From Dysgonomonas sp. BGC7 (GTDB taxonomy: Bacteria; Bacteroidota; Bacteroidia; Bacteroidales; Dysgonomonadaceae): a DNA stretch of 57,916 nt. This document shows positions 7,457-57,916 of the stretch, piece by piece (within the stretch, counting starts at the first letter, position 1; each line of letters opens with the position of its first letter). The notes below the pieces were generated by a model. It was not told where the DNA came from. It saw only the letters and a list, made by a program, of their open reading frames with translations, and made no database searches. Both the position numbers and the translations under genes were made by a program. The DNA lies in the NCBI RefSeq assembly GCF_001261735.1, contig NZ_CVRP01000022.1:1-57916 (forward strand), in the 5' to 3' direction.

Positions 7457-7476
7457 CAAAGTTTTTTAAATATAAG

Positions 7477-7510: not shown

Positions 7511-7518
7511 AGTTAGAA

Positions 7519-8217: not shown

Positions 8218-8234
8218 TTCTGAGTTTTTTTCAT

Positions 8235-8242: not shown

Positions 8243-8313
8243 CACTACAATATGGAATAGTTATAAACTATCGGCTTTGTTCAAATGTTTATAACGAACA
8301 TAAAAATAAAAAC

Positions 8314-8628: not shown

Positions 8629-8638
8629 GAAGACTAGG

Positions 8639-32136: not shown

Positions 32137-32139
32137 AAT

Positions 32140-36103: not shown

Positions 36104-36293
36104 TAAAGTATTCGATTGGTTGCCCGATTCGTCCGGATTTGATCCAGCATTCTTCACATTCGATATATCGCTTTCCTTCGATTTCGATAATGATTTGTGT
36201 TTTATTATCTTTTTGGGAAATAGTTTTCGCAAGTTCCCTGATCTTTTGATATCCCTCATTAGATATTGTTTTTTTACATGTTTTACAGCTCAT
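36096..36293 (-). CDS. Small zinc-binding protein
   Basis: The start at 36293 (MSCKTCKKTISNEGY) gives 65 residues with two CxxC pairs: CKTC near the start and CEEC near residue 47. The pattern suggests a small zinc finger. The ATG overlaps the stop of the upstream gene (ATGA), which supports this start over the one at 36326. It lies between a structural protein and the tape-measure-proximal gene. The first part of the next gene's longer frame runs through it in another frame. Confidence 0.6.
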   Translation of the reverse strand: MSCKTCKKTISNEGYQKIRELAKTISQKDNKTQIIIEIEGKRYIECEECWIKSGRIGQPIEYFIV

Positions 36294-36826
36294 TTTTTCG
36301 ATAAGTGTTTTAAAATATTTAGCCATATCATAGGCCTGATCCAGTTGTCATAATAGAATTGACGAGATTGCGGGGCTAGTCCGTAAACTTTGCCGTATTT
36401 CTGTTCGATGTCACTTGCAGCCTTACCACTCGATCCTATTGTATAGTTGTCAAGGCTTACGGTTATGAAAAAATAGTTATAAAAGAAATTACCATTTACT
36501 ATCAGATTGGGGGTGTTATAATCCTTCTTCGGGAAAAGCTGTACTTTTGTATAGCTTTTCATAGATTCGTGATCTTGCAGCATGCTAAATTTCATATAAA
36601 AGTATGTTCTAGCCTGCTCAAAAGTCTTAAAGTAAGGATCTGATAAATAACCGGGGGTTAATTCGTTTCCGGCTGTATCGCGTCCATATAGCAGCTGATC
36701 ACGGTTCAGATCGAGTATAACATCTGATGTTTTATTCACCTCTTCTGATACAATGACCATTATTCCTTCCCCTTCATTTCCATAAAGTTGTTCGAATTGT
36801 CGTTTAAATCCTGCTATTGTCGCCAT
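36290..36826 (-). CDS. Phage tail/head structural protein, unknown
   Basis: The 178-residue protein begins MATIAGFKRQFEQLYGNEGE. It is a soluble mixed alpha/beta protein with many aromatic residues near the C-terminus (RQFYYDNWIRPMIWLNIL). No family was recognised. It lies between the putative tail tube region and the tape measure region, so tail assembly or a tail completion role is plausible. It starts after a strong inverted repeat that could regulate its expression. Confidence 0.65.
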   Translation of the reverse strand: MATIAGFKRQFEQLYGNEGEGIMVIVSEEVNKTSDVILDLNRDQLLYGRDTAGNELTPGYLSDPYFKTFEQARTYFYMKFSMLQDHESMKSYTKVQLFPKKDYNTPNLIVNGNFFYNYFFITVSLDNYTIGSSGKAASDIEQKYGKVYGLAPQSRQFYYDNWIRPMIWLNILKHLSKK

Positions 36827-36838
36827 ATCTATAAATAT

Positions 36839-36864
36839 AAAAGGGTGCTATTCCGCACCCTTTT
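36839..36864. terminator. Perfect 10-bp hairpin inside the tail operon
   Basis: AAAAGGGTGC, a TATTCC loop and GCACCCTTTT form a perfect ten-pair stem. On the minus strand it is followed by an A/T-rich stretch with several T residues. It spans the stop of the 36848-37063 gene and lies 13 nt before the next start. It could be an attenuator or partial terminator that lowers expression of downstream tail genes. Confidence 0.6.
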
Positions 36865-37063
36865 CGTTATTTTCCTTTTGCGGAAATGCTTCTTCCCATA
36901 TCCTTTTCAGAACCTTCTTCAATTCCGTTTTACTTACATTTTCGTGTTTTTTTTGAACATCATCAAAGAATTCTTCTTTCTTGTCCGGGGTATATCTTTT
37001 CCGGATGCTTTCTATTGAAAAACCGATGGAGAAATTCCCGATTGTATAAACTGGCTGTTTCAT
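36848..37063 (-). CDS. Small hypothetical tail-region protein
   Basis: The 71-residue protein begins MKQPVYTIGNFSIGFSIES and has a charged C-terminal helix (KKVLKRIWEEAFPQKENN). It starts by an ATGA overlap with the tail tube gene (37060), so it is likely translated. Position after the tube gene is where tail assembly chaperones often lie, but no programmed frameshift signal was identified and the family is not recognised. A perfect hairpin spans its stop codon. Confidence 0.6.
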   Translation of the reverse strand: MKQPVYTIGNFSIGFSIESIRKRYTPDKKEEFFDDVQKKHENVSKTELKKVLKRIWEEAFPQKENNEKGAE

Positions 37064-37929
37064 GTCAGGTCAGTATATTCTTCTTCTCCCTCATACCCTT
37101 CTATATCGGCTGCATCAAGAACAGACGCATCTCCAATCATATATTTGCCTACAGGATCAAATGTCAATTCTCCGGCAGCATATGTCACAGTTGTAGGATT
37201 AGCACCTGTAGGATCTTTATATAAAGCCGCGGTTGCCAATGTTGCTCCGTATGTCTCTGTAAGGTCTTCGCCGGAACATGCAATAACAAACTTCGCCTTA
37301 CCTGCTCCGCTTCTTTGCAATACGACTCCTGTAAGTCCTTCCACATCTCCAGTTAGAGCAATAGAAGCCATCGCATTTTCTTCATTTTCATAGTCAGCAT
37401 CATAAAACACAGACAAAATGATTGCCCCGGTCTGAGAACCTGTATTATCACGCTTTGTTCTCCATAATTTAGCAAGAAAGCCTCTGAAATGATCTTTACC
37501 TTCTATTGTTGCTATTGTACCGTATGCAATCTTGTTTTTGTCTACGGGAAATAGCCGTATTTGCTTTCCGTTAAGCTTTCCCAATTCCTTGAATAAACAA
37601 AGCCCTCCCTCGTTGATTATGTAATCCACTCGCTTAGCATTGATACCGATAGGTGTTTCAGGGCCGAATCCTTCTTGTGATGTTCTTACATCTCCTCCGG
37701 TCGGCTGGTAGTCTGTGATACCTCCGAGCAATGGAGTAATGCGATCCGCTCCTAAAGCAATAATGCCTGCCTGAATAGCTGCATTGAATAGTGTTTCATC
37801 CAAAGGATAGTATTTCCCTTTGTCATGGATAATAAATCCATGGGGTGTACCCTCAAACATGGAACATTCACCCACTCTTGTATGTGCTTTCTTGTTGCCT
37901 TTACATAGGCTTGCTATAAATCCACTCAT
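37060..37929 (-). CDS. Probable major tail tube protein
   Basis: The 289-residue protein begins MSGFIASLCKGNKKAHTRVG. Its beta-rich composition, its position between the tail-completion genes and the tape measure region, and its Ala/Gly/Thr-rich C-terminal Ig-like half (around PTTVTYAAGELTFDPVG) suggest a major tail tube protein. No sheath-type length or motif is visible, so a contractile tail is not supported. Overlaps of 4 nt with both neighbours show tight translational coupling. Confidence 0.6.
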   Translation of the reverse strand: MSGFIASLCKGNKKAHTRVGECSMFEGTPHGFIIHDKGKYYPLDETLFNAAIQAGIIALGADRITPLLGGITDYQPTGGDVRTSQEGFGPETPIGINAKRVDYIINEGGLCLFKELGKLNGKQIRLFPVDKNKIAYGTIATIEGKDHFRGFLAKLWRTKRDNTGSQTGAIILSVFYDADYENEENAMASIALTGDVEGLTGVVLQRSGAGKAKFVIACSGEDLTETYGATLATAALYKDPTGANPTTVTYAAGELTFDPVGKYMIGDASVLDAADIEGYEGEEEYTDLT

Positions 37930-38576
37930 TTTATTAAGTTTTTAATTTCATCTGTTACTTTTTCGCTTTCTTCTGTTATTACATTACTTTTAGCCGTACA
38001 AATGTTATTCAAGGCCTTTAGTGTAAAATTTGGCAACTCTATAGCATCTATAAAATCACCATACTGAATTCTTATAATCGAGTTTAAAGTGTTACCCGTT
38101 GTTGGTATATATGCACTCGAATAAGGATATCTCCCTGTTGGCTTCTGAAAGAAAGAACTTAATTCTATTTGCCGTATCAGCTCTTCTTCTATAGGTCGCA
38201 AAACCAACTTATAAACCTGTGATTCGCGTTTCTGGGTAGTCCATTCTGACAACACAGGAGCTACTATTGCAAGGTTGTATCGAATAAGAGTTATACCCGG
38301 ATTAAAATTATGTTCCTGATAGATACCCTGATAGCTCAATATTGCAGGAAATTTCAACTTACTACCATTTATAGAGTCTTTTCCAAGGGCCTTAAACACT
38401 TGTGATATTTCTTGCATAGTTCCCGGAAAATGCCATAAATGGAGCTTATTTTCATTTATCAACGAAAGCCAGTAATAATACTCCTTTATTCCATCAATGA
38501 ATTGTTGGTTCTTATTAAGGGCTTGTGATGTCCTGTAAATAAGACTTCCCATTATTTCATTTGCCGTTGCTTTCAT
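37926..38576 (-). CDS. Tail completion/terminator-like protein, unknown
   Basis: The 216-residue protein lies between the connector-like gene and the tail tube gene, where tail terminator or completion proteins normally sit. It begins MKATANEIMGSLIYRTSQAL and has an aromatic-rich middle (EYYYWLSLINENKLHLWHFP). I do not recognise a family. Its ends overlap both neighbours by 4 nt (ATGA-type), consistent with the late operon. Confidence 0.6.
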   Translation of the reverse strand: MKATANEIMGSLIYRTSQALNKNQQFIDGIKEYYYWLSLINENKLHLWHFPGTMQEISQVFKALGKDSINGSKLKFPAILSYQGIYQEHNFNPGITLIRYNLAIVAPVLSEWTTQKRESQVYKLVLRPIEEELIRQIELSSFFQKPTGRYPYSSAYIPTTGNTLNSIIRIQYGDFIDAIELPNFTLKALNNICTAKSNVITEESEKVTDEIKNLIK

Positions 38577-39130
38577 AGTCCGAACGTATTTATATTACGG
38601 GTTATGCTGCACACATTGCGCCCTGTATAACATCCTGCATATTCTTTATAATCCTCAATATGATTACAGAACCATTTATCAATATCGAATGTCATATCTA
38701 CCATATCATTCCATGCCTTAACCATCTTATAGTTATTATTTGCATTTATGGCATTATCAAATGTAGGATCTGCTTCTCCGGCTTGAGTTGTTTTTGTACG
38801 GGCATCCCTTATTAGCCAATAATAAACATAGTTGGCCAATGGGGATGCTTTATATGGTACTGTTACAATAAGTAACTGATCCCTTAGATTTGTCCATATT
38901 TCATCGGGTGAAGATTCAGATATTTCTTTCAAAAAGATTATGGTAAGTTCACGTCCAAACAGGCGGGTTAGATAGTCTATAACATACTTATCTATAAATA
39001 TGTCAATATTATTTTCACCTACAGTCTGCAATGCTAACTCAACGCCACTACTAGCCGTTCCCGATGGTGATACCGGTATGTTAGGTAGAGATAATTCCCC
39101 GATGAAATATGTATTATCTATAAGGATCAT
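38573..39130 (-). CDS. Head-tail connector-like protein (DUF6712-like)
   Basis: The 185-residue protein sits immediately after the major capsid and a small lysine-rich gene, the position of head-tail connectors of the gp6 type. It resembles the Bacteroides-phage DUF6712 family, a recalled similarity that I could not test. It begins MILIDNTYFIGELSLPNIPV and contains helical segments (YVYYWLIRDARTKTTQ). It overlaps the next gene by 4 nt. Confidence 0.6.
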   Translation of the reverse strand: MILIDNTYFIGELSLPNIPVSPSGTASSGVELALQTVGENNIDIFIDKYVIDYLTRLFGRELTIIFLKEISESSPDEIWTNLRDQLLIVTVPYKASPLANYVYYWLIRDARTKTTQAGEADPTFDNAINANNNYKMVKAWNDMVDMTFDIDKWFCNHIEDYKEYAGCYTGRNVCSITRNINTFGL

Positions 39131-39134
39131 TTTA

Positions 39135-39311
39135 CTATTTTTTAGGAGATTCTTTTGTAGCTTTACCAGCCGCTATCAGTTTATCTGCTAATACCTGATG
39201 AACTTTTATTTCTTCCCCTTTTTTGTAGTGTCTGCTTTTATCTGTAGCATAAACTGTTACCTTTTCGTTCAGCTTGATCACTTCCCCTTTTTTATCTGTA
39301 TCTTTTGACAT
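39135..39311 (-). CDS. Small lysine-rich phage protein
   Basis: This 58-residue frame runs from the ATG at 39311 to a TAG at 39135, 28 nt after the major capsid stop and 4 nt before the next gene. It is rich in Lys and begins MSKDTDKKGEVIKLNEKV. A charged YATDKSRHYKKGEEIKV segment and a KLIAAGKATKE ending resemble short head-completion proteins that follow capsid genes. It is not long enough for confident family assignment. Confidence 0.6.
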   Translation of the reverse strand: MSKDTDKKGEVIKLNEKVTVYATDKSRHYKKGEEIKVHQVLADKLIAAGKATKESPKK

Positions 39312-39339
39312 AATATTCTAATTATATGTTTATAAATTG

Positions 39340-40785
39340 TTACGCTGCATCCGATGGAGCATCAATTGCAGTTTTCACTGTTGCAAATGATTCATATATT
39401 ACGGATCCTGCATCTATAGAGTTTTGATAGGAGTGCAATCTCATTTCAGCAATTACCGTTACAAGGTTCTTGCGAAAATCGTCATTCTCCCAGCCAAATT
39501 CGAGACGGAAGTCTTCATAAACACGAACCATCCATTTTGCAGTATCCATCAGCAAGAAATTACCTGCGGGAATCTCAGTCGTTTCAATTATTCTAAGGCT
39601 TCTTAATATCCCTTCCAATTCTATCTTGATATAGTTTCCGGTAGTTGATTTTGTCAAATCCATTACAGCGGAATCAGTAGGATTTAGAAACACAACGTTT
39701 GGCTTGTAATTGAGTAGTCTCATTTGAAGCATAGCCGCACGGATAGCATCGGCATTGTTAGCCATAAATATTTTTCCATCTAATCCCGTTCCTATATACC
39801 CCCCTGCGTTTGTTATAATACCAGCCGGATCCGTTGTTCCTCCAGTACCGTTCAAAAGCTTATTATCTAACACTTGATAAAGATCCCTATTCAAAAGCAG
39901 TCTTATTTCGGATTCCATATATTCGAAATCCTGCAACATTTCTGTTGATACCTTTGTTGATACAGCTATCTTCTTCGCTGTTGAGGATTCTTCATCGTAT
40001 TCCCAATCCATAAGGGGTTTTAGTGTACCTTCTGCTATGAATGCTGCACCTCCCTCTTTATTTATACGATTAATCCAAATTATAGTTCTGGATGAAGTCA
40101 TTCCCTTTAATAGGGTTGTTAGGATAACCGGTTGTTCGAATGGAGATTCTTGTATTCCCGGAACAACTTCATAACTTAAGGCATGAGGTGCATTAGTCGC
40201 ATTTGCAGTAGTTATTACGGCGGCTGCTTTTATTTCCATACCCTCTGCTTTACCGGCTTTCATCTGAGATTTGAAAGAATCTGAGCCTAAAAAATCGGTT
40301 AATTGTTTTTTAAATGTTTCTCCGCTAGGGCTTCCTTTGTCTTTAATCTTTTTTATTTCCAAGCCCTGATCTTTCAACGCTTTTTCTAATTTACCGAGTG
40401 TATCTTTATTGATACCATAATCTTCAACAAAATGCTCGAAGGCCTTCTTTACTTTCTCATTTAATTCAGGGCCATCTAATAATCCTTTCTGATGCTGGTC
40501 TAATTGATCTCCCAAATGTTTGGCCAGCGACTCCAAACCTTTCTCTTCATTCTCACTCAATCCCAATTCTTTTGGTACCACAAACGCCAAAGGAGCAGCC
40601 ATTGCCACGCCCATCACGGTGCCGCCTACCTTAGATATTGTATTGTCTGAACTAAAGGCTGACCCTGCATACAATATGCCCACAAATAGCAACATTATGA
40701 TTGCAAAGCCTTTCATTTTCAACAGCCGACTGCATCTGCGCCCGTACAGACTGTTTTGTTTTGCTTTCTTAAAAATCTCTTTCAT
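39340..40785 (-). CDS. Major capsid protein, HK97-type, with hydrophobic N-terminus
   Basis: The 481-residue protein has an HK97-like capsid layout. A helical delta-like segment (residues about 75-170, charged) is followed by the capsid core with NAPHALSYEVVPGIQ, the DLYQVLDNKLLNGTGGTTDP segment and a MRVYEDFRLEFGWENDD-type axial region. Unusually, residues 20-65 form two hydrophobic segments (FAIIMLLFVGILYAG and GVAMAAPLAFVVP). Such segments are not expected in a capsid protein and would be removed if the prohead protease encoded upstream cleaves the delta region. The longest frame start at 40785 lies 1 nt after the protease gene. Confidence 0.8.
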   Translation of the reverse strand: MKEIFKKAKQNSLYGRRCSRLLKMKGFAIIMLLFVGILYAGSAFSSDNTISKVGGTVMGVAMAAPLAFVVPKELGLSENEEKGLESLAKHLGDQLDQHQKGLLDGPELNEKVKKAFEHFVEDYGINKDTLGKLEKALKDQGLEIKKIKDKGSPSGETFKKQLTDFLGSDSFKSQMKAGKAEGMEIKAAAVITTANATNAPHALSYEVVPGIQESPFEQPVILTTLLKGMTSSRTIIWINRINKEGGAAFIAEGTLKPLMDWEYDEESSTAKKIAVSTKVSTEMLQDFEYMESEIRLLLNRDLYQVLDNKLLNGTGGTTDPAGIITNAGGYIGTGLDGKIFMANNADAIRAAMLQMRLLNYKPNVVFLNPTDSAVMDLTKSTTGNYIKIELEGILRSLRIIETTEIPAGNFLLMDTAKWMVRVYEDFRLEFGWENDDFRKNLVTVIAEMRLHSYQNSIDAGSVIYESFATVKTAIDAPSDAA

Positions 40786-40786
40786 C

Positions 40787-41611
40787 TTAATTTTTTGTTA
40801 ATTGATTAAATTTACTGAACATACTTTTTAGTGCGGGTGGCTGTGCCGGCCCTTCATATTGAGTGCCTCTCGGCGGCTCAGATTCTTTTACTGATTGTGT
40901 AGGTGTAGCCCAATTGGAACCCATAAGAACAGCTGATCCTTCTACTAATTTAGCTTCTGTTACAGCCCAGAAATATCCATTATCTTCGGCGGCATCTTTA
41001 TTTACCACTTCGTTAATATATTTGTCCCAGTTAGCCTTTTCGGATGAGTAATAGGCTTCATTGCTATTTATGCACAAGAATAGCTGAACATATCTCATAC
41101 CTACTGAATGATTCTTGACATATCCTCTTGCATATTGTTCGAACATAAAAGGATTGCGCGCTTTTTCAATCTCACTGTCAAATATTAAAGCCTCTGTTTG
41201 TCCATCAAAATCTATCCCGATCTCTTTCCATGTCATTTTCTTTACAGATGCTGTAACCTCATCGGATATGACATGATCGAACTTCATTAAATGTTCCTGA
41301 AGATGATAAACCAGCTTTAATTCTTTAATGGATTTCTTCCAGAGGCCATCAATATGTACATCATCGTGACTGTCTAACAGCTTTGTTGTATTGATAATCA
41401 CTCTTACCTTTATCTTATCTTTCGAAAGCAGGTATTGCACATTATCAGCGGCCTTTTCGGCCTCATCTTTCTCATTGACAGAATGAACAATGTAGGAAAC
41501 TGCATCGGCCTTCTTCATTTCAAACTTCTTCTGCGAAACAAGCTGTTTCTCATTATCTTTGAGAAATTTGAATAATTCTGATTTATTTTGAAACTTACTT
41601 TTGTCTATCAT
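40787..41611 (-). CDS. Prohead protease
   Basis: The 274-residue protein matches the HK97-type S78 prohead protease pattern. It has a His-containing segment (KNHSVGMRYVQ) and later a Ser-containing segment (AKLVEGSAVLMGSNWATP), typical of the catalytic His and Ser of the family. It is directly upstream of the major capsid gene, as expected. The C-terminal part (PPRGTQYEGPAQPPAL) is Pro-rich. Its ATG overlaps the stop of a 33-residue frame. Confidence 0.8.
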   Translation of the reverse strand: MIDKSKFQNKSELFKFLKDNEKQLVSQKKFEMKKADAVSYIVHSVNEKDEAEKAADNVQYLLSKDKIKVRVIINTTKLLDSHDDVHIDGLWKKSIKELKLVYHLQEHLMKFDHVISDEVTASVKKMTWKEIGIDFDGQTEALIFDSEIEKARNPFMFEQYARGYVKNHSVGMRYVQLFLCINSNEAYYSSEKANWDKYINEVVNKDAAEDNGYFWAVTEAKLVEGSAVLMGSNWATPTQSVKESEPPRGTQYEGPAQPPALKSMFSKFNQLTKN

Positions 41612-41709
41612 TTCTTCACTATTTTCTTATCTGTTAATAGCTTCTCCTTTTCCTGCTTCTTTTGGTCGAGTATCTTCTTATCAACTTTGACCGGTAACTT
41701 TGTTTCCAT
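41608..41709 (-). CDS. Possible 33-residue lysine-rich protein
   Basis: A frame from the ATG at 41709 to a TGA at 41608 fills the gap between portal and protease. It overlaps the portal end by 29 nt and its TGA overlaps the protease ATG (ATGA). It encodes METKLPVKVDKKILDQKKQE and then KEKLLTDKKIVKK. The coupling geometry supports translation; its shortness keeps this tentative. Confidence 0.4.
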   Translation of the reverse strand: METKLPVKVDKKILDQKKQEKEKLLTDKKIVKK

Positions 41710-42970
41710 TTTCTTCGGTATAGTATGTTGTACCTTTCGGCTTCTCATCCATGTCTAACAATACCCTATATTCTTCTTTCGTTATCACTTTTAGTTTATA
41801 AGGTATTTGCAGAGCCTGATTCATTTTCAGAAGTGCTTCAGCTTTCTCTTTTTCAGCTTCTTTCAGATATTCTACATCTGAGAAATCAATGCTTATGACT
41901 GCATTTTCAAGATCCAAGAACTCTGTAAATTTTTCTTCGTAAATCCGTGAGGTAGGTATCACATTATCCTGATACAGATATTTGATGGCTTCTGATCTGT
42001 TGGCAAATGTTGTTCCCTTCTGGTTAGCCAAAAGTTCGAATGGATAATTAAGTGCATCAGACACACTCTCTATGTTTTGCTTAATACCTTCGTAAAGCAT
42101 CAAATCCCTTACATTGAAGGATAGTGGTAACCAACCCAAATCTGAGTCCGTTATTATAACTTTTGACTGGTACTCGTTTAGTCCATACTTTCTTTGATAA
42201 TCGGATTGTATTTTTTCTTTTTCTATAGGGGAAAATGGTACATTTCCGGAAGCATCTTTAGTTTTATTGGTGATAATGCCTTGTGCGCCTCTATCTTTAT
42301 TCAGGGAATAGATAGCTTCCTGAGCTTGAATAATATTACGTATCTCGTAATGAAGCCCTCCTATGCGAGATGTATTTTTATTTCTATTAAGATATGATAT
42401 GTCACCGAACGAATCCCGAATAGTAAGTATATGCCGTGGATTAACATCAATAGTAGATCCATTTATAGTAATCACATATTTTTCTATAATATCCTCTATA
42501 CTTTGGGCAAAGTAGATAATATCCTTTTTAAATATTGGTTCTATACGTTCCGGATTTATGGGCCATAGTGCTGTTGCATCTGATACAGATGAGAAACCTT
42601 CAGGAACTACTGCATATACATGAGTAATACCATAAAGACTTCGATATGTATCTGTTTGTATTATAAATTCGGTACGTGTCTGTAGCGGATTTGGCTTCTT
42701 TATAAGATCGGATATATTCTTATATCGCTTACTAGAATCGTTATTTTTTTCGTCTACAATCCACCATTTACCATTTGACAAAGATGATGCTGTACGATTT
42801 ATAATAGTAGATACCGGCGAACATTTGCAATAGGCTTCACGCAATCCAGACATGCTATCCAGTTTGATAGTAAATCCCGGCGAATTGCAATCTCCTTTCC
42901 AAGTCATCCAACTCATTGGAAGGCCTTTGAAATATCCTTTTCTTGATAATATCTTTTCTAATATGCCCAT
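41681..42970 (-). CDS. Phage portal protein
   Basis: The 429-residue protein is an HK97-family portal: it forms the dodecameric ring through which DNA enters the capsid. Typical segments are the CSPVSTIINRTASSL region, LIKKPNPLQTRTEFI, and the stem/clip region with SDALNYPFELLANQKG. It starts at the ATG at 42970, and the second copy of the 25-nt prophage repeat lies about 55 nt upstream. It precedes the protease and capsid in standard order. Confidence is high from order and motifs. Confidence 0.85.
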   Translation of the reverse strand: MGILEKILSRKGYFKGLPMSWMTWKGDCNSPGFTIKLDSMSGLREAYCKCSPVSTIINRTASSLSNGKWWIVDEKNNDSSKRYKNISDLIKKPNPLQTRTEFIIQTDTYRSLYGITHVYAVVPEGFSSVSDATALWPINPERIEPIFKKDIIYFAQSIEDIIEKYVITINGSTIDVNPRHILTIRDSFGDISYLNRNKNTSRIGGLHYEIRNIIQAQEAIYSLNKDRGAQGIITNKTKDASGNVPFSPIEKEKIQSDYQRKYGLNEYQSKVIITDSDLGWLPLSFNVRDLMLYEGIKQNIESVSDALNYPFELLANQKGTTFANRSEAIKYLYQDNVIPTSRIYEEKFTEFLDLENAVISIDFSDVEYLKEAEKEKAEALLKMNQALQIPYKLKVITKEEYRVLLDMDEKPKGTTYYTEENGNKVTGQS

Positions 42971-43021
42971 AAAAATCGAATAATAACAAAAGTCCTAATT
43001 CTATCCCTATCATGGAATAGC

Positions 43022-43046
43022 CGCAAATAACTCGCAAATAACTTTT
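43022..43046 (-). repeat. 25-nt prophage repeat, copy 2
   Basis: This copy is identical over 25 nt to 29239-29263 and contains the tandem CGCAAATAACT unit. It lies 52 nt upstream of the portal start, between portal and the DnaA-like gene, again on the 5' side of a minus-strand structural gene. Confidence 0.7.
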
Positions 43047-43049
43047 GTA

Positions 43050-43337
43050 TTATGTTATGGGAATAATATCATTTTCTATTCTTGCAATCTTGTTTTTCAG
43101 TCCTTTATATAAATTCAGTTGATTATTAAATACAATCAGGTTATACGATACATTTTGATCTGTCATTCTTAGATATTTGGCTACAGCAGCTCTTGATTCA
43201 CTTAACCTTATCATCATTATGTATATAAATATCCTACGGGCCTCGCATATATCCTGTGTTCTTTTTCTCGATAGTATATCTACTTGTGATATACCTGTCA
43301 GTTCACTAACTTTCATTATAATATCATTCATGTCCAT
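43050..43337 (-). CDS. DnaA C-terminal-domain-like protein
   Basis: The 95-residue protein resembles the DNA-binding domain IV of DnaA. ILSRKRTQDICEARRIFIYI corresponds to the basic loop and helix that contact DnaA boxes, and AVAKYLRMTDQNVSY to the domain IV recognition helix. It lacks the ATPase domain. It may regulate replication or late transcription. It lies between the terminase/packaging genes and the portal and starts at the ATG at 43337. Confidence 0.6.
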   Translation of the reverse strand: MDMNDIIMKVSELTGISQVDILSRKRTQDICEARRIFIYIMMIRLSESRAAVAKYLRMTDQNVSYNLIVFNNQLNLYKGLKNKIARIENDIIPIT

Positions 43338-43343
43338 ACTTTT

Positions 43344-43817
43344 TTATTTGAAATAAAATCTTCTTAAATATTGTGTTGCATCCGACAATACATCTAAGGC
43401 TATATTTGTCTTGTCCGGATCGGATATATTGAAAGACGTCATCTTATCAATAAAAGATGGGAATATTTCATTTACCAGTACATTGCTTTCTATCCAGTGA
43501 GCTTGTGATACTATGCGGTTAATATATGTTCCTTCCGATTTATATCCTCTAACCTTTATATTGTCGTGTTGCAGTATATTACGTAAAGTGGTACACTCAT
43601 GCATATACACCGTACATTCATATTGAACTAACTCCGGGATATGCTTTCTGGCCAAAAACGATAAATCTTCTATAAATTGATCTATATCACCGGATTCTAC
43701 GATATCACACACCATCAATTTTTCTTTATTCTCATAAACTGTTATTGCACAATAGCCATACGCGGTGGCTTTTGCGAATATCATTTTATGTTTTGTATTT
43801 TTCTTTTCTTCATTCAT
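43344..43817 (-). CDS. Packaging-region protein of unknown function
   Basis: The 157-residue protein begins MNEEKKNTKHKMIFAKATAYGY and its ATG overlaps the terminase stop by 8 nt. It has an alpha/beta pattern with an early hydrophobic strand (GYCAITVYENKEKLMVCDIV) that loosely resembles RNase H-fold nucleases. The large terminase already has its own nuclease half, so this call is weak. Position suggests a packaging accessory. Confidence 0.55.
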   Translation of the reverse strand: MNEEKKNTKHKMIFAKATAYGYCAITVYENKEKLMVCDIVESGDIDQFIEDLSFLARKHIPELVQYECTVYMHECTTLRNILQHDNIKVRGYKSEGTYINRIVSQAHWIESNVLVNEIFPSFIDKMTSFNISDPDKTNIALDVLSDATQYLRRFYFK

Positions 43818-45336
43818 CTTCTTTATATGTTGAAGGTTTCTTTATCAGACTATTATTCAGCTCAAACCATTCATTCATCATATACATATCCAATAGATTG
43901 GGGCTCTCTCCATTCAGATATTTCTGTTTCATTTCATCTTTAGGTATCAGCCGGGTTGCCTCCTCATCCTTCTTTGTCTGTTTTTTTATCGCTTTACGTT
44001 CGAGCATAAACTGCTGACGAATAGTATTCTTTTCATCGTACATTTTATTCGCTACATGTTCAGATATATATGATTCACCCCGGGCGGCTCTTTCTCCCGA
44101 ATAGATATAACATTGAGTCTTCAGATTGGCAAACGTTCTATTATCACCCGTATCTATAGCCTTACCTCCATTGTGAAAAGGTATTGATCCTTGTATAAAT
44201 CCATTTTTTTCTCCTCCGATGAAGAAACCTACTCCATCGGCATCATACAGTATATTCGAGTTTCTTACTTTATGTTTTACCTTGAATCTGAGAAGAAGAT
44301 CTATTACATCCTTGCCGGTCGTCTTATCGTATATCTCTATATCCTCCAACCTATGACCTTCAAAAAATCCGGCTGCGAGTTTATCATTACCTTCTCCGGC
44401 AACGTCTACAACTATGCGCCGTTCTCCCCTACTGACGAATGAATTAGAGAATATATCACGAAACGCATAATAGTCATAGACATCGTTATCGCTTATTATA
44501 GGTTTCCAACTGCCTAATAATAGCCGGGCTTTTTCTTCTTCCGACAAAGAAGCCAGATTACCTAAATATTCAGGGTTGATACTCAACAATTCCACATTGT
44601 CATATATAGATCCTCCTATAAATGTTATAGATTTTATAAAGTTGTCATATGTAGCTAGTCCTTTAGAACTTTCAACCATCGGCTCTAAATAGTATCGAGC
44701 CTTCTCTATAACCTCATCTTTTGTATCACCCCAAATATAACTTTCTCCATCTCGCACAAAATATCTTACGATTCCTTTTCTTTCCGGTATTGGCAATCCC
44801 GTATTGGGATCTATCCACCAGCTTATTAATTCATATACCCAACTATCAGGATCAGGGTTGCATGTAGCGCGCACATAAGGTATTACTCCACACGTGGACC
44901 GGTTACGTGACAACATATAAAAAAACATCTTCTTACTAAAGTGTGTCAGCTCATCGAAGCCTATCATTGGTATCTCGGATCCTTGCCAGTCATATATATT
45001 TTTTTCATACTCCAGATGCGAAAATTTAAGTTTCGATCTATCTCCAAAATGCCATTCATAAGATGATTCTTTCGAACGGGCATCAAATACATAACTATAT
45101 AGTTTTTTAGAGGCATCCCACAACCCACCTTCACTTCTTATCTGAGGGGTTGTCCTTCTAAATATGACAGCTCCAAAGCCTTTTACATCTTTATGCCTCA
45201 ACGGCTCCAATAGCAGTGTAAATGTCTTACCCACTCCGGCAGCTCCACCGCCTATAACAATATCTGCTGGACTGGATAATGCCATCATCTGATACCCGTC
45301 TTGCGGACGTATCTTATTTATTCTTATTTCTGCCAT
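43810..45336 (-). CDS. Terminase large subunit
   Basis: The DNA-packaging motor. The start at 45336 (MAEIRINKIRPQDGYQM) is preferred over 45351. The N-terminal ATPase has Walker A GGGAAGVGKTFTLL and Walker B IPMIGFDELTHF. The C-terminal nuclease part includes the acidic segment VDVAGEGND near residue 310 and the conserved Asp in LYDADGVGF. It overlaps the small subunit gene by 23 nt. The length and motifs match HK97-type large terminases. Confidence 0.9.
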   Translation of the reverse strand: MAEIRINKIRPQDGYQMMALSSPADIVIGGGAAGVGKTFTLLLEPLRHKDVKGFGAVIFRRTTPQIRSEGGLWDASKKLYSYVFDARSKESSYEWHFGDRSKLKFSHLEYEKNIYDWQGSEIPMIGFDELTHFSKKMFFYMLSRNRSTCGVIPYVRATCNPDPDSWVYELISWWIDPNTGLPIPERKGIVRYFVRDGESYIWGDTKDEVIEKARYYLEPMVESSKGLATYDNFIKSITFIGGSIYDNVELLSINPEYLGNLASLSEEEKARLLLGSWKPIISDNDVYDYYAFRDIFSNSFVSRGERRIVVDVAGEGNDKLAAGFFEGHRLEDIEIYDKTTGKDVIDLLLRFKVKHKVRNSNILYDADGVGFFIGGEKNGFIQGSIPFHNGGKAIDTGDNRTFANLKTQCYIYSGERAARGESYISEHVANKMYDEKNTIRQQFMLERKAIKKQTKKDEEATRLIPKDEMKQKYLNGESPNLLDMYMMNEWFELNNSLIKKPSTYKEDE

Positions 45337-45835
45337 TATCGGGTAATTCAAATATGGTTAATTGACTTATTTCACCTGATATCTCCCTCTTTTCCGGCAT
45401 ATCATATCCTAGCATTTTACAGATACGTTCTATTGTCCAACTTTTACCATGAAGTTTTAATTCAATACCGTATTTACCTTTTTTAATACTTTCTATAGCC
45501 TTTACTTGCGTTTCCGATAAGTCGGAGAAGTTCTTGAATTTTATCCTGCCATTTTTAAAAGACAAATAGTCGGTTATTCTTGAATTTAAAATCGCTGATA
45601 GCTCTTCTAATATCCTTTCCTTGGTTATATCTGATTTACGCCGCAAATTATCCTGCAATTGTTTTATCCTTGTACTAATCTTGTACTCCTTTAGTAATCT
45701 GCTCGATCGTTCATTAATTGTTTCCGGCTTCATACTATCACATGAATATGCCTGCCTATATGCTTCACTGGCATTACCCATTTCTACATACAGATCACAA
45801 AATTTTTCTTGCTTTACAGTTAATTTTTCTAACAT
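45314..45835 (-). CDS. Terminase small subunit
   Basis: The 173-residue protein is the DNA-recognition subunit of the packaging enzyme. It starts with the TerS hallmark LTVKQEKFCDLYVEMGNASE, followed by AYRQAYSC. These features form the N-terminal HTH. Helical oligomerisation segments follow. It lies immediately upstream of the large subunit and is the first gene after the strong terminator at 45853-45892, so it probably heads the late operon. Confidence 0.9.
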   Translation of the reverse strand: MLEKLTVKQEKFCDLYVEMGNASEAYRQAYSCDSMKPETINERSSRLLKEYKISTRIKQLQDNLRRKSDITKERILEELSAILNSRITDYLSFKNGRIKFKNFSDLSETQVKAIESIKKGKYGIELKLHGKSWTIERICKMLGYDMPEKREISGEISQLTIFELPDNGRNKNK

Positions 45836-52689: not shown

Positions 52690-55380
52690 TTATACAGTTT
52701 CCACGATATCAAATAGAGACGGCATTAATACTTCTTCCTCTGCGGCCCGGCAATAAACGGAACCGTCTAAGAAATATTTATGAGCCAATTCAATTATAAT
52801 TGCTTTACGCTTTTTTAATATTGATCTATAGGCCACTGTTCCAATACCCCCAAACGGATCAAGAATCGTATCGCCGATATTACTACATTGCTCTATTACG
52901 CGGTCTACTATGTCGAATTGAAGAGGACAAAGATGCATTTCTTTACCTTTCCCTGATTGAAGGGTATTAAGAGTAAGCATACGTGTTATATCTGTCCAAA
53001 CCTCATCACTCCAGCTCTGAGGCTGTAATAACATAAATCCGGAAGGAAGCTTACCATGAAGTTCCAATGTTTCTGCGATAGTAACCACATGCTCAAAATC
53101 CCATACTTCGCTCAAAGAATACCGTTTAAATTCCTGAAATATGACATCACAATCCAACTTCGCCAGCTCATCGGGTGTAAGACATCTATTGCCAGAACTG
53201 CGTGTATATCCGTGTGCATCCATCTGCCATCGGGCCCTACTATATGGAATCATTTCCTTTTCACACTTATGGCAATAAAAAGTTCCTTTTTCCTCTGTGC
53301 TCTCATATTTTTTATGAATTTTAGTTTTGCAATTTGGACACTCAACATAATCATTGTCTGAACTCACATAGTGTTTTCCTTTTACTACCGGTATATCGGC
53401 ATAAGCATTTGTCCGATCGGTCTGAGGTTTGCGAAAGTATAATAGATATTCAGGCATACCTACACCCATTTTAGAACCATCTTTACACTGCTCTGTCCAT
53501 CCTAAACGATAGGTTTGATTATTCTCCCTTACGACATCAGTTACGATTGTTTTCATCCCCATGTATGCAAAACCATGTTTTTTGTAATGGTTTATAGCAT
53601 CCAAATGAAAAGGATAAACTTCTTGACATCCCATGCCCGATAATCCCATAGGCACTATACGATCTTTCACATGAATAACAGCCAAACGACCGGGCATTAA
53701 TACTCTATAAAGATTCGGGGTTAAGAAATCCATTTGTTTAAAGAACTCTTCATTACTTTCCGAATGTCCGTAATCGGCATAGTTAGGAGAATACTCATAC
53801 TGAGTAGAGAAAGGAATAGATGTATGTATAAGCCCTATAGTATTATCCTGATAGCGTTTTTTATCTGCTAGTTCAGGAACATTGTCATTGTTAACACTTG
53901 TGTATGTCTTTCCTTTTATTTCCATACGCTCAACTCCTATTTTTCGAGTAAGGGCTTGTGCCATTTCCGCATGGGATAATCCGTACTTCTTTATTATCTC
54001 AGTCATTTTTCGTATCAGTTTATTATGTTTTTTCCATTTGTCCTCTAGCGATTTGCGAACATTACGTTCAGCTTCAGTGTAAATGAGATCTACTCTAACT
54101 GTATTCTTTTGAAGAAATCGCTGCAAACGATGTATAGATTGTATGAAATCATTAAACTTATAACCTATGCCCAGATATATAGCCCAACTACAATAACGTT
54201 GAAAGTTGCAGCCGCTACCAGCTATTACGGGTTTCGCTGCCAGTTCAGGAATATGACCGTATGAAAAATCATGTATTGCCTCTTCTCTCTTTTCATAATC
54301 CTGTGATCCATATATTGAGGTTATACCTGTTATTGCCTTTTCTATTGATCTTCGCTCATCTTCAAGATCGTGCCATATAATACGATGTGCATGCGGATTC
54401 TCACTCCGTAATTCTATCATTTTGTCAATACGTGCGTCAAGACTTTCTCGCTTTTCTTTGGCCGATTGCTGCAAACCCAATGCTACATCCTTAAACATCC
54501 GGAATTGTCCACTCTTCTCAACCTCACTTTTGCTATGATCGGTAGGTATTTCATGCCATCGAAGATCAAGTTCAGGCAAGATATACCCCTCATCGTCCGC
54601 AGGGTTGCCCGTTATGTCGGAAGGCATATTCACAAATACGGCCCATGAAGCAATCCACATCCAGAAATCCTCCTCCATGTGTTCGAGTAATATCAGGTTA
54701 TCGGCTTTTGTAGAATCACGTTTAAAAAACCGTGTCTTTGCCTGCGATATATCCATGATACCCAGAAAATCAGCATAGGTTAGCAGTTCTATATAGTCAT
54801 TAGGTGATGGTGTCGCCGTAGCTACAAAACGATATTTTACATTCTCTTTTCCGCGTCTAACTTGCATAGGTCCGGCATCACCCGTAAACAAACGCATATA
54901 TTCACGAAAGGTCTTAGAACTGCCGCCACCCCTCAGTGTAGAGGCTTCGTCAAGACTTGCCACCTGAAATAATCGAGGATCAAGACGTCCGTCACGTACA
55001 CTTTCGTAATTCGTTAGATAGATACCATCTCCTTTTACCTCATTATTGCGACGTATAAACCTAGGGGCTTCACTCCATCCCAATATATTTACTGCATCTT
55101 CTATAAATTCCTGCCTTACATTCAAAGGAAGATTTATAAGTCCCCTATTAGTGGATGACTTTTCAAGCATACAGCGGACAGCTTCCAATTGGGTTACAGT
55201 CTTATGAAGCCCGAATGAGGCAAAGCAAGCCCTCTTGCCGCCTTCTACAAGCCATTTTACCATCAGCTTATTATGCAACTTCATGCGAGGGTTTATTTCG
55301 TCTAAATCCAGTTTAAAGCCATAATTCTCTGCGATCTTTATTTTTCCTTTAAGGAATGCGTTATACTCTTTTTCTTCCAT
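52690..55380 (-). CDS. SNF2-like helicase fused to a DNA methyltransferase
   Basis: This 896-residue protein has an N-terminal SF2/SNF2-like region: a Walker A variant ASFGLHKT near residue 57, a DExx-like LDEAS, a TATPSPNDY motif III and a QSIHRLQRF motif VI. The C-terminal 350 residues form a beta-class N4/N6 methyltransferase with motif IV reading HTSIPF near residue 545 and motif I DPFGGIGT near residue 855. A zinc ribbon (CPNCKTKI, CHKCEK) lies between. Both catalytic motifs are non-standard: GxGKT reads GLHKT and SPPF reads SIPF. It may remodel and modify phage DNA, or defend against host restriction. Confidence 0.75.
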   Translation of the reverse strand: MEEKEYNAFLKGKIKIAENYGFKLDLDEINPRMKLHNKLMVKWLVEGGKRACFASFGLHKTVTQLEAVRCMLEKSSTNRGLINLPLNVRQEFIEDAVNILGWSEAPRFIRRNNEVKGDGIYLTNYESVRDGRLDPRLFQVASLDEASTLRGGGSSKTFREYMRLFTGDAGPMQVRRGKENVKYRFVATATPSPNDYIELLTYADFLGIMDISQAKTRFFKRDSTKADNLILLEHMEEDFWMWIASWAVFVNMPSDITGNPADDEGYILPELDLRWHEIPTDHSKSEVEKSGQFRMFKDVALGLQQSAKEKRESLDARIDKMIELRSENPHAHRIIWHDLEDERRSIEKAITGITSIYGSQDYEKREEAIHDFSYGHIPELAAKPVIAGSGCNFQRYCSWAIYLGIGYKFNDFIQSIHRLQRFLQKNTVRVDLIYTEAERNVRKSLEDKWKKHNKLIRKMTEIIKKYGLSHAEMAQALTRKIGVERMEIKGKTYTSVNNDNVPELADKKRYQDNTIGLIHTSIPFSTQYEYSPNYADYGHSESNEEFFKQMDFLTPNLYRVLMPGRLAVIHVKDRIVPMGLSGMGCQEVYPFHLDAINHYKKHGFAYMGMKTIVTDVVRENNQTYRLGWTEQCKDGSKMGVGMPEYLLYFRKPQTDRTNAYADIPVVKGKHYVSSDNDYVECPNCKTKIHKKYESTEEKGTFYCHKCEKEMIPYSRARWQMDAHGYTRSSGNRCLTPDELAKLDCDVIFQEFKRYSLSEVWDFEHVVTIAETLELHGKLPSGFMLLQPQSWSDEVWTDITRMLTLNTLQSGKGKEMHLCPLQFDIVDRVIEQCSNIGDTILDPFGGIGTVAYRSILKKRKAIIIELAHKYFLDGSVYCRAAEEEVLMPSLFDIVETV

Positions 55381-55637
55381 TACCTTTTATCTTTCTCAAA
55401 CTGTTTATACTTTTCCTCATCCAACACAAAGAAGCCTTTAGCCTTGCGGATAGCTTCACAATAATGAAGTGATTCTTCTCCCGGTACTATAACTCCATAA
55501 CCCAAAGGCACACAATAGCCTAATGCCTTACATTTCCACATATGGCCGAATCGCTTATTTTCACCTTCATTGTTGCGACAGTATTCGCACCGGGCAATAA
55601 TAGGAGGAAATTCCGTCTGTTTGGCTTTCTTACTCAT
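55380..55637 (-). CDS. Small cysteine-rich early protein
   Basis: From the ATG at 55637 this 85-residue protein begins MSKKAKQTEFPPIIARCEYC. It has four or five cysteines (CEYC, MWKCKALGYC, HYCEAI) that could bind zinc. Its start lies within the last codons of the DUF4494-FtsK gamma gene and its stop overlaps the next start by one nucleotide. Family not recognised. Confidence 0.6.
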   Translation of the reverse strand: MSKKAKQTEFPPIIARCEYCRNNEGENKRFGHMWKCKALGYCVPLGYGVIVPGEESLHYCEAIRKAKGFFVLDEEKYKQFEKDKR

Positions 55638-56304
55638 GTTCCTCATTTATCAGCACACGCCGGGGCGATGCTCCGTTAAACGGTCCTACAATACCTTGTT
55701 GCTCCAACGCATCTAATAGCCTGTTAGCACGGTTGTAGCCTATTGAGTAGGTACGCTGTAGTAATGATGGGCTAACGGTTGTATGATGTGCCAATAGATC
55801 TTTCGCCTGATCATATAGAGGATCTTCATATATCCCATCCAAAAGATCGGGCTCCTGCTTTGGCTTTTCCGCTTTATCGGCATCATAAGGAAATATATCC
55901 ATTATGCCAGTTTCGGTTAACGATCCGATTGTATAATCAGCCATTGTTCCTTCCATCCCTTTTTCGATGACCTTCAGAGCTTCTTTTATATCGCATGCCT
56001 GTACAAGCATATTCGAAGGCGTTTTCTTTTCCTGTCCGTTCTTTTCGTCCAACGTGATGAAATATACTTTTGCCCTGAAATAGCGATCCCCATTCTTATT
56101 GAAAAATATTTCGCTTAGTTTCGCTCGCTTTATATCGGCGACACTGAATTCTCCGGAGATATAAGGCTTAATGTTTTCTATTATACGGGCCTCAGCCTCA
56201 GTAAAAGACAACGCATCGACCAAATAAGACTCTGTTACTTTCTTTTGTTGACCATTCTCCAGTTGCTTGTCATAGCTTATCTTACATTCAAACCAATTGT
56301 GCAT
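55630..56304 (-). CDS. DUF4494 domain fused to FtsK gamma domain
   Basis: The 224-residue protein has two parts. Residues 1-140 match DUF4494 of Bacteroidetes (WFECKISYDKQLENG). The C-terminal 65 residues (about 158-222) match the FtsK gamma winged helix: DPLYDQAKDLLAHHTTVSPS and RTYSIGYNRANRLLDALEQQ, followed by IVGPFNGASPR. In full-length FtsK this domain reads KOPS sequences and activates XerD at dif. No motor is present here. It might recruit host FtsK/Xer functions or bind phage DNA. It starts at 56304. Confidence 0.75.
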   Translation of the reverse strand: MHNWFECKISYDKQLENGQQKKVTESYLVDALSFTEAEARIIENIKPYISGEFSVADIKRAKLSEIFFNKNGDRYFRAKVYFITLDEKNGQEKKTPSNMLVQACDIKEALKVIEKGMEGTMADYTIGSLTETGIMDIFPYDADKAEKPKQEPDLLDGIYEDPLYDQAKDLLAHHTTVSPSLLQRTYSIGYNRANRLLDALEQQGIVGPFNGASPRRVLINEEHE

Positions 56305-56316: not shown

Positions 56317-56634
56317 TTAGGTGAAATAAAATGTTTTGCCACTACCGACTCCGAAACTTTGCTGCTTAATAGTAACTGTAAAAGGGAAGCCATTTTCAGG
56401 TATTTTATCAAGTACCTGTTTTAAGTTTTCCGAATTGGTAAAGAATTTATAATCGTTATTGTTATGCCGTATCTTTATTACATACCTATCAGGACCATGC
56501 TGTGTTTTTACTCCCTTTTGAAAAGCAATCACAATTATTTCACAGTTAATAATATCCGTAATTGATATTTTAGGCACTTCAAATATTTTACTATTGTTCT
56601 GTATCTTAATTCCAAGCTCCGAGAACTTCTTCAT
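56317..56634 (-). CDS. Small protein overlapping the DGR reverse transcriptase
   Basis: The 105-residue protein starts at 56634, 29 nt inside the 3' end of the reverse transcriptase gene, so the two are translationally coupled. It begins MKKFSELGIKIQNNSKIFEV and is beta-rich with an OB-fold-like strand pattern (YVIKIRHNNNDYKFFTN) and a C-terminal Gly-rich FGVGSGKTFYF. An SSB-like or DGR accessory role is conceivable but unproven. It is not an Avd-type four-helix protein. Confidence 0.6.
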   Translation of the reverse strand: MKKFSELGIKIQNNSKIFEVPKISITDIINCEIIVIAFQKGVKTQHGPDRYVIKIRHNNNDYKFFTNSENLKQVLDKIPENGFPFTVTIKQQSFGVGSGKTFYFT

Positions 56635-57604
56635 GCTTAATTATCGTTTTAATTAAATTTCTTGAATTAGAATATTTACACCATCCTATCCATGAGCATA
56701 TCTTTATCCTGTATTCCTTTGCTGTCATTATACTTTTGTTCAACCGGGCTACACGCCTGCAAAAATTCTTCTTTATGCGTTTTCGCAGCATTGTATGTGT
56801 ATGGTAGAATACATAGCCTAAAAAATCTATTCCGCGCGAGACTATGGGAAATACCTGATAGTTTTGTTTCATCTTCAGATTGAGCTTTCCGGATAAATAA
56901 GATCCGATATCTATCCGTAACCGGTGCAGATCCTCTTTACTATCGCACAGGATAACCAGATCATCAGCATACCGGTAGTAATATTTTACCTTCTTTACTT
57001 CTTTCAGCCAATGATCGAAATAGGATAAATACAGATTAGCCAGAAACTGAGAGAGGTAATTTCCGATAGGTATGCCCGGAGCAGAATCTATTATACCATC
57101 TAGCAATACCAGAAGCTTAGTGTCCTTTATTTTCTTCCGGACAATCTGTTTCAATATATCATGGTCTACAGATGGATAGAACTTTGTGATATCCATTTTC
57201 AGACAATAAGTAGTTTCTTTCCGGTTTCTCAAATCGCGCCTGATATGTTTCCATGCCCCGTGTATGCCTTTGCCCTTGATGCTTGAATAAGAATGCGAGA
57301 TAAACACAGAGGTCCATATATCTTCCAATACGTTCATTATCGCATGCTGTACAACCCTGTCACTGAACGGTAAGCTATAGATGGTACGCTCTTTAGGATC
57401 GCGGATAACGAATACATTGTATTCCGATGTAACATAAGTTTCGTTCATCAATACTTTTTGTATCTGAAGAATGTTTCTATCCAGATCCTTCTCGAACTGC
57501 AATACACCTCTTGTTTTCGATTTACCTTGCTTTGCCTTACTGTAAGCTAGATAAAGATTATCCAAATCGTATATTCTACTGTATAAGTTTCCTTTTCGCT
57601 TCAT
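56606..57604 (-). CDS. DGR reverse transcriptase
   Basis: This 332-residue reverse transcriptase starts at the ATG at 57604 (MKRKGNLYSRIYDLDNL); an in-frame GTG at 57646 adds 14 residues not typical of the family. Finger and palm motifs are present: KMDITKFYPSVDH with the catalytic Asp near 138, the DGR-specific IGNYLSQ near 180-186 (other RTs read QGxxxS), and YRYADDLV with Asp214/215. It lacks group II intron maturase and retron-type features. It would copy the template repeat RNA with adenine errors. Gene order, target then template then RT, is the classical DGR layout. Confidence 0.92.
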   Translation of the reverse strand: MKRKGNLYSRIYDLDNLYLAYSKAKQGKSKTRGVLQFEKDLDRNILQIQKVLMNETYVTSEYNVFVIRDPKERTIYSLPFSDRVVQHAIMNVLEDIWTSVFISHSYSSIKGKGIHGAWKHIRRDLRNRKETTYCLKMDITKFYPSVDHDILKQIVRKKIKDTKLLVLLDGIIDSAPGIPIGNYLSQFLANLYLSYFDHWLKEVKKVKYYYRYADDLVILCDSKEDLHRLRIDIGSYLSGKLNLKMKQNYQVFPIVSRGIDFLGYVFYHTHTMLRKRIKKNFCRRVARLNKSIMTAKEYRIKICSWIGWCKYSNSRNLIKTIIKHEEVLGAWN

Positions 57605-57667
57605 GCCTTTGTTTCTTATCGGAGCGTTCGGTATTCCTACTAACACCTTTTGAATATTTGTTTTTCG

Positions 57668-57686
57668 CCAAGGGGCGGGGCCTTTG
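57668..57686 (-). ncRNA. Candidate structured segment between TR and RT
   Basis: CCAAGG and CCTTTG flank a GC-rich loop and can pair with one mismatch. The block GGGGCGGGGCC is unusually GC-rich for this AT-rich window. In known DGRs the RNA downstream of the template repeat is folded and needed to prime cDNA synthesis, and this segment sits in that place. Confidence 0.4.
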
Positions 57687-57705
57687 CTCTGATTAATGTT
57701 TTACA

Positions 57706-57785
57706 ATTGTGGGAACCCGAACCCGCGTTCGCATTCGTGTTATCGTAATTCGAGTTCTTGAAAGCGAACGCAGAAGGACTACAGG
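57706..57785 (-). repeat. DGR template repeat (TR)
   Basis: On the minus strand the sequence reads in frame as CSPSAFAFKNSNYDNTNAN, then AGSGSHN, with many AAC/AAT codons, the signature of a DGR template. Positions 57706-57733 align over 28 nt to the variable repeat at 57889-57916: all 23 non-adenine positions are identical, and 4 of the 5 adenines are changed. The 5' boundary near 57785 is a guess because the matching part of the VR is beyond the edge. Confidence 0.88.
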
Positions 57786-57810
57786 TTCAAAGCAAACAGC
57801 CCTGTTTCTA

Positions 57811-57916
57811 TTATTTCAGTTGAACAGCTTCCCAAACTTCAGGAAACGTTTTGCCAATATGATCGGCTGCGATCTCGCTTAAAACGCGAAGGCGGGAACC
57901 CGAACCCGCGTGCGCA
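57811..57916 (-). CDS. DGR target gene, C-terminal end (5' part beyond window)
   Basis: The last 34 codons of the diversified protein are visible. They begin AHAGSGSRL, the end of the variable repeat in frame, and continue with a constant tail RVLSEIAADHIGKTFPEVWE and AVQLK before a TAA at 57811. The VR at the C-terminus of a target is the usual DGR arrangement, in which the repeat encodes the ligand-binding face of a C-type lectin or Ig-like fold. The GSRL closing of the repeat is common in such targets. The rest of the gene lies outside the window. Confidence 0.85.
   Translation of the reverse strand, partial: AHAGSGSRLRVLSEIAADHIGKTFPEVWEAVQLK
57889..57916 (-). repeat. DGR variable repeat (VR), 3' end
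   Basis: This 28-nt piece is the visible end of the VR. Compared with the TR on the minus strand, position 5 is A to C, position 24 is A to G, position 26 is A to C and position 27 is A to T, while all other positions agree. Its GC-rich core GCGGGTTCGGGTTCC would be the initiation of mutagenic homology. A short stem (TCGC, 7-nt loop, GCGA) lies immediately downstream. Confidence 0.88.

Follow-up and report, generated by a model that had tools for sequence, protein, structure and literature searches.

A Dysgonomonas prophage diversity-generating retroelement that probably mutates an array of small paralogous early genes

In the diversity-generating retroelement (DGR) of BPP-1, the variable repeat (VR) differs adenine-specifically from a template repeat (TR), the 3' ends of the two repeats carry a fixed difference, and a spacer precedes the reverse transcriptase (RT). 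These properties are common to the DGR described here, which lies at the right edge of contig NZ_CVRP01000022.1 of Dysgonomonas sp. BGC7; the whole contig (57,916 nucleotides, C22) is the window that was analysed, so its right edge is the end of the contig. The explanation that best accounts for the whole, at a probability of about 0.78, is that this prophage DGR mutates an array of small paralogous early genes. According to PMC8144416, the variable regions of annotated DGRs systematically have a lectin fold, and tail proteins make up most of the phage targets. In Quimbyviridae, a non-structural second DGR target has been described as a C-type lectin (PMC8008677), and in four prophage species a distal VR was found near counter-defence genes (PMC12629997). 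Because non-structural or distal second targets have been reported in this way, an early target is not new as an idea, and the dedicated small-target array is the new variant here. In addition, a small open reading frame (ORF) of Avd-like size has been reported near the RT of Hankyphage p00 (PMC6199706).

Locus architecture and adenine-specific differences

On the minus strand of the right edge, the end of a small gene, the TR, a spacer with a structured RNA, the RT and a 105-aa gene follow one another, and the order of target 3' end, TR and RT proposed in the first-pass annotation, which was made from the letters alone, is borne out. The features are as follows.

57811..57915, minus strand: third small target gene, C-terminal end (target profile match C22:57817-57915, E 5.7e-8; stop codon read)
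L027 16134-16442, end of contig C17: third target gene, N-terminal part
57894..57916, minus strand: last 23 bp of the third variable repeat (VR3), the remainder being C17:144377-144442 (20-nt contig-end overlap)
57890..57909, minus strand: VR 3' end, GCGGG...CCCGCCT, candidate initiation-of-mutagenic-homing (IMH) site (VR/TR end difference, folding)
57711..57779, minus strand: TR, 69 bp with 15 adenines (repeat comparison)
57599..57682, minus strand: structured spacer RNA between TR and RT, Rfam RF03020 (RT-17), 41.2 bits against a gathering score of 40.4
56606..57646, minus strand: DGR reverse transcriptase, 346 aa as called from GTG (Pfam RVT_1, PHROG_1423, motifs, Brt identity)
56317..56634, minus strand: accessory gene, 105 aa, overlapping the RT stop, with a predicted OB fold (PHROG_19665, function unassigned)
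52690..55380, minus strand: helicase/DNA methylase fusion, a neighbour outside the DGR (Pfam N6_N4_Mtase; PHROG_16, DNA helicase)

The RT matches Pfam RVT_1 (1.8e-22) and PHROG_1423, reverse transcriptase (1.2e-128), is 35.9% identical to BPP-1 Brt, and its translation carries IGNYLSQ and YADD, as had been read at first pass; an IGNxxSQ-like motif is a mark of DGR RTs. Its start is likely an ATG at about 57604. A defence RT (DRT, retron) was also considered, as PADLOC and NCBIfam RT models scored, with no NCBIfam match at cut-off; the DGR assignment was preferred because of the TR/VR repeats and the relation to Brt.

Searching the genome with the TR region returned three further repeats, all on contig C17 (143179-143248, 143666-143737 and 144377-144442), and beyond the TR and these three VRs all matches listed had E 0.046 or worse. 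When the full alignments were counted by template base, all 24 substitutions across the three VRs fell at TR adenines: 5 of 5 in VR1 (all-at-A chance 4e-4; the count omits five TR bases, four of them A, around a length change), 8 of 8 in VR2 (7.7e-7) and 11 of 11 in the C17 part of VR3 (1.3e-9), while the 23-bp part of VR3 inside the window has one difference, at an A. Neither many non-adenine substitutions nor the lack of an open target gene upstream was seen. VR1 is longer than the TR by one base, so its gene is frame-shifted.

Changes at four of five adenines had initially been reported from a 28-nt TR/VR alignment. The adenine bias is real, and much stronger over the C17 repeats, but the A to G, A to C and A to T changes of that alignment fall immediately outside the repeat, at a point with GCC(T) in each of the three VRs and ACAA in the TR. 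They reflect a fixed end difference and not mutagenesis, fitting the fixed end of an initiation site. Moreover, the VR 3' end can fold into a hairpin that the TR copy forms only partly (four copies folded). The 3' end in relatives reads CACCTATG in the TR against CGCCTTTG in the VR, and among the 89 pairs with the TR form, VR position 2 is G in 88 and position 6 is T in 87; 55 of the relatives' 144 TR/VR pairs are without the motif. The 3' end is directional in that the candidate IMH site differs between VR and TR copies.

With a DGR-type RT, adenine-only differences from a TR lying near it and the same bias in related loci, the element is, on its sequence signature, a DGR beyond chance, as was first suggested, and homology and signature together leave little doubt about mutagenic homing as its mode of action.

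The right edge of the window is a contig break within this DGR. The third C17 repeat sits at the extreme end of C17, and the final 20 nt of that contig are identical to the 20 nt with which the minus strand of C22 begins. The same 20 nt are present in VR2; because they continue there into VR2's own downstream sequence, C17 running into C22 would be the simplest join. In L029, the closest relative with flank (RT 83% identical), three small targets of the same family, the TR and the RT are all contiguous. The three targets here are small paralogous genes, of which one is frame-shifted and one is split by the contig break, and a layout of one TR and three VRs in three adjoining small genes is well supported as far as the assembled contigs can tell.

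A tRNA-like gene with a long insert lies just ahead of the first target (L027:14783-14909; Rfam tRNA 32.6 bits; not called by ARAGORN), and tRNA matches are also found upstream of the DGR in L045 and L049. The VR 3' hairpin (57894-57909; GCGGG, loop, CCCGC) resembles the T-arm of this gene (L027 near 14885-14905), probably by coincidence.

Relatives, spacer RNA and the OB-fold gene

To collect relatives, the RT was searched for in viral contigs, where the best 80 of 263 loci were kept, and the targets both in viral contigs (best 80 of 244 loci) and in genomes, where the best 80 of 87 gave 79 distinct loci. The 191 RT matches in these loci were reduced to 122 non-redundant ones, 94 with enough flank, the annotated phage records L141-L147 being left out of the locus count. 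Small targets are present in 81 of the 94 loci (59 from viral contigs, 22 from genomes), a set that is biased because loci were found by RT or target similarity; with ORFs of at least 100 aa counted, 64 of them have two targets, 12 have three and five have one. A base-blind search gave 144 TR/VR pairs in 79 of the 81 loci. TR A accounts for 1900 of the 2320 mismatches (a rate of 0.623 per A, compared with 0.030 to 0.065 at the other bases), and 125 pairs have at least 75% of their mismatches there; in several loci the segment picked is probably not the TR. Scanning 80 loci by control base returned A in 66, C in 0, G in 22 and T in 6, and inspection showed that most of the G pairs either join one VR to another or are the same repeats with TR and VR exchanged.

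Twenty near-identical pairs of loci, which share members and are not independent, passed filters that dropped pairs more than 5% different in the ungapped upstream comparison (12 small-target, 8 lectin-type). Together they differ at 60 of 789 VR adenines, at 0 of 2119 other VR positions and at 7 of 24963 positions outside. Four small-target pairs differ at VR adenines (L055/L057 9/43, L056/L057 20/43, L062/L063 6/45, L062/L064 6/45), while showing only 0 to 3 changes in the rest of the upstream sequence and 0 to 2 within the RT, and the remaining 8 of 12 have no VR difference; L091/L095 is the sole differing lectin-type pair (19/27 VR adenines). VR differences that are confined to adenines in some near-identical relatives show the system to be active in nature, as witnessed by relatives rather than by this strain.

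A quick tree recovered a main small-target group (46 rows, SH-aLRT 83) and a lectin-target group (24 rows, SH-aLRT 98). A single clean clade for the small-target type was rejected, as L050-L053, L080 and L090/L093/L096 fall outside the main group; either gains or losses occurred more than once, or the quick tree lacks resolution. Sixty target loci have no RT match. A-biased repeats are present within 11 of them, and an in trans TR search covering 30 found an RT candidate in 19 of the 30 genomes and a matching TR beside a distant RT for 7 loci, with no matching TR beside an RT elsewhere in the genome for the other 23. L243 and L269 have four tandem target matches and no detectable RT in the available flank, L269 keeping a TR-like repeat. 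In L232, likewise without an RT match, a helicase-methylase fusion like that of the window directly follows the TR (6523-8781), with a C5 methylase next.

The spacer between TR and RT contains a structured RNA, and to our knowledge the need for a structured spacer is known for BPP-1 only. From 64 extracted spacers, a first alignment combined 50 with that of the window; of the 14 omitted, nine were mis-picked segments and five (L209, L210, L223, L256, L264) had been omitted without good reason, and adding these five to give a final 56 rows left the outcome unchanged. The structure, predicted on the first alignment, which somewhat favours it, has 8 pairs in 3 helices, every pair with double changes and 96.9% of cells paired. 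Its covariation score was 0.673, against a shuffled mean of 0.230 (0 of 500 as high) and at most 0.108 in slid controls, and its 106 double-change cells were reached in 0 of 500 shuffles. RT-17 scored at or above the Rfam gathering score in 5 of the 12 sources searched (11 small-target loci and one lectin-target locus), with no match at that score in the one lectin-target locus. A covarying structured RNA between TR and RT is well supported by these comparisons, and the RT-17 RNA likely has a role in this DGR lineage.

The accessory gene overlaps, adjoins or is fused to the RT in 78 of the 81 small-target loci, and stands next to the RT in none of the 13 loci without small targets, all of which are lectin-target loci. 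Its model (pLDDT 89.5) has strands at 32-44, 47-57 and 60-66, a helix at 69-77 and strands at 85-94 and 99-104, the five-strand OB topology of strands 1-3, helix and strands 4-5; structural matches are weak, with single-strand binding proteins (SSBs) among other OB proteins. In L077:375-1661 and L241:6576-7862, RT and OB accessory form a single 428-aa open frame, and the RTs of Hankyphage and BT-TP2 carry an OB domain at the C-terminal end; the domain is present outside the small-target type as well. The accessory is considered an OB-fold-like protein tied to the RT, the linkage being well supported. The locus at L228:6400-6830 (Dysgonomonas sp. 216) lacks the RT and the beginning of the OB gene, whereas targets, TR, spacer and the C-terminal part of the OB gene are still in place.

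The absence of avd between target and RT, noted at first pass, holds by sequence, the conserved gene overlapping the RT stop being another one. BPP-1 Avd searched as a single sequence with phmmer against the ORFs of 80 relatives and 7 phage records matched only itself, and tblastn of the window and L027 gave a best E of 0.83, sequence searches that a distant Avd could escape.

Targets, their setting and alternative explanations

PHROG matches in the window include an integrase (22322-23446), a virion structural protein (30115-32136), a tape measure protein (32140-35505), a major head protein (39340-40785), a portal (41681-42970) and a terminase (43810-45351). Terminase, portal, capsid and tail genes span 30115-45351, and the targets lie outside this structural module: after the terminase come methylase and helicase genes and the DGR, and the order continues on C17 with the targets, a VRR-NUC gene and a gene resembling a repressor. 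The gene at 55630-56304 (minus strand) encodes a DUF4494 protein whose C-terminal part is an FtsK gamma domain, and homologues of this protein flank 19 of the 53 small-target loci listed. Flanks of small-target loci (129 of 156 prepared ORFs, 10 of 12 loci) hold regulator, transposition, repressor, recombination and helicase families, as well as some portal, minor head and tail-completion genes, among the 25 of 146 families listed, while those of lectin-target loci (38 of 64 prepared ORFs, 7 of 8 loci) hold tail proteins among the 25 of 43 families listed; this contrast is only suggestive because the lectin-target set contained the lectin targets themselves.

A C-type lectin or Ig-like target fold, suggested at first pass, found no clear support. 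The best Pfam match to the target family (E 0.002, 3 of 55 members, an unrelated family) is not convincing, PHROG_11581 (function unassigned) matches two of the three targets here, and the model of the first target of L029 (55-row alignment, pLDDT 86.9, falling to 58-67 at residues 101-130) is mostly helical with one hairpin in the VR and has no PDB match better than E 8.8 in Foldseek. This hairpin aligns with the last hairpin of the lectin-type targets of sister RTs over 29 columns (probability 90), so a variable hairpin may be common to two scaffolds; the target may also be a degenerate lectin. Membrane-like stretches occur in 6 of 278 distinct targets, one of the six N-terminally, and in none of the other 272. 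The rewritten stretch is predicted to form a beta-hairpin close to the C-terminal end of a protein that is helical elsewhere and has no evident secretion signal.

The same parts occur in sequenced phages. Versailles, LoVEphage and BT-TP2 each possess one TR with two matching repeats, one next to the RT and the other far away, within a homologue of the small-target family (protein matches E 8e-9, E 1e-3, which is weak, and E 1e-5), with 15 of 23, 20 of 28 and 14 of 34 adenines changed, respectively, and one other mismatch each. The Versailles and LoVEphage homologues are placed among recombination, replication, repair or methyltransferase genes. The BT-TP2 record has the match at its end, behind regulator genes, and the VR at its start; apparently, a single gene spans the two ends. 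The Versailles homologue (L307:5905-6486) is annotated 'tail protein', yet stands among recombination and replication genes; that annotation may derive from the VR alone.

In the proposed mechanism, RNA of the TR plus spacer would be copied by the RT with errors at adenines, as in DGR biochemistry, the OB protein would stand in for the Avd of BPP-1 in handling nucleic acid or partnering the RT, and the cDNA would replace each VR from its fixed 3' end, the TR staying unchanged. There is roughly an even chance that the targets are early cytoplasmic binders, whose hairpins would be redrawn against variable factors of the host or of rival phages, for instance defence systems; a role in the virion or in adhesion is less probable. 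More tentatively, and with the odds somewhat against it, a Bacteroidota phage DGR lineage may have moved off the tail fibre to become an intracellular repertoire generator, in which two to three small early helical non-lectin proteins, each with one hypervariable hairpin, are rewritten in parallel with an OB-fold protein in place of Avd, giving renewable binders against host or rival defence proteins.

An ordinary tropism DGR, in which the small targets are virion adhesins or decoration proteins from an early operon and variation alters surface binding, seems unlikely. Phage DGR targets are mostly tail or receptor-binding proteins (PMC8144416; PMC10743442), and both the 'tail protein' annotation of the Versailles homologue and the lectin-like VR hairpin would fit such a role; however, the targets here stand apart from the structural module, the Versailles and LoVEphage homologues keep company with replication, repair or methyltransferase genes, and the 272 targets devoid of membrane-like stretches speak the same way. 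Moreover, the Versailles TR also serves a separate RT-adjacent gene that is itself annotated as a tail protein, and the LoVEphage repeat beside the RT lies in no annotated gene.

Decay or inactivity of the DGR, with old VR differences persisting, is quite improbable. RT, TR, spacer RNA and accessory are all open or complete in this strain, and the four small-target pairs that differ at VR adenines testify to activity in relatives, not in this strain, against which stand the frame-shift at VR1, the loss of the RT in L228 and the eight near-identical pairs with unchanged VRs. It is likewise improbable that the OB-fold gene is the phage's general SSB, beside the RT by chance: the SSBs among its weak structural matches would agree with this, as would the homologues of L080 and L205, whose start lies upstream of the RT, some 1.5 kb ahead of the RT stop, but the overlap or fusion with the RT (L077, L241, Hankyphage, BT-TP2) and the lack of such a neighbour in all 13 lectin-target loci argue otherwise, and LoVEphage has both an OB homologue and a separately annotated SSB that the accessory profile does not match.

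If the prophage DGR does mutate small early genes, a widespread DGR type for small early proteins would extend targeted hypermutation to the inside of the infected cell and would offer a family in which to seek phage proteins that track fast-changing defences. Besides Avd, the RT would then have another candidate protein partner, and the RT-17 RNA would gain a likely role; sequenced phages with the same parts, such as Versailles and LoVEphage, make this DGR type testable.

Comparison with described systems

A literature search, with subscription papers mostly outside it, found no account of small-target arrays, an OB partner or a role for RT-17 in DGRs. The BPP-1 DGR (mtd/avd/TR/brt) resembles the present one in its RT family and in having the TR upstream of the RT; it has one tail target, Avd and a TR of 134, whereas the Dysgonomonas DGR has a small-target array, an OB-fold-like partner with no Avd found, and a TR of 69 bp. 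Hankyphage p00 is similar in that an OB-like domain forms the C-terminus of its RT (residues 327-434, E 6e-32) and differs in its single large lectin-domain target (PMC6199706). The Tentaclin dual-target DGRs also have more than one target per TR, but both targets are lectin-domain proteins proposed to bind receptors (PMC10743442).

The DGRs of Quimbyviridae (PMC8008677) and of the four prophage species (PMC12629997) resemble this one in having a hypervariable protein that is non-structural or distal and lies close to methyltransferases or other genes of counter-defence. In those systems, one TR is described as serving an RT-side target and a distal target, whereas here three small paralogues lie in cis and no other target was found. 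In LoVEphage, the distal target matched by the TR is a weak homologue of the small-target family, with an OB homologue near the RT. Rfam RF03020, the RT-17 RNA, corresponds to the TR-RT spacer of this DGR lineage.
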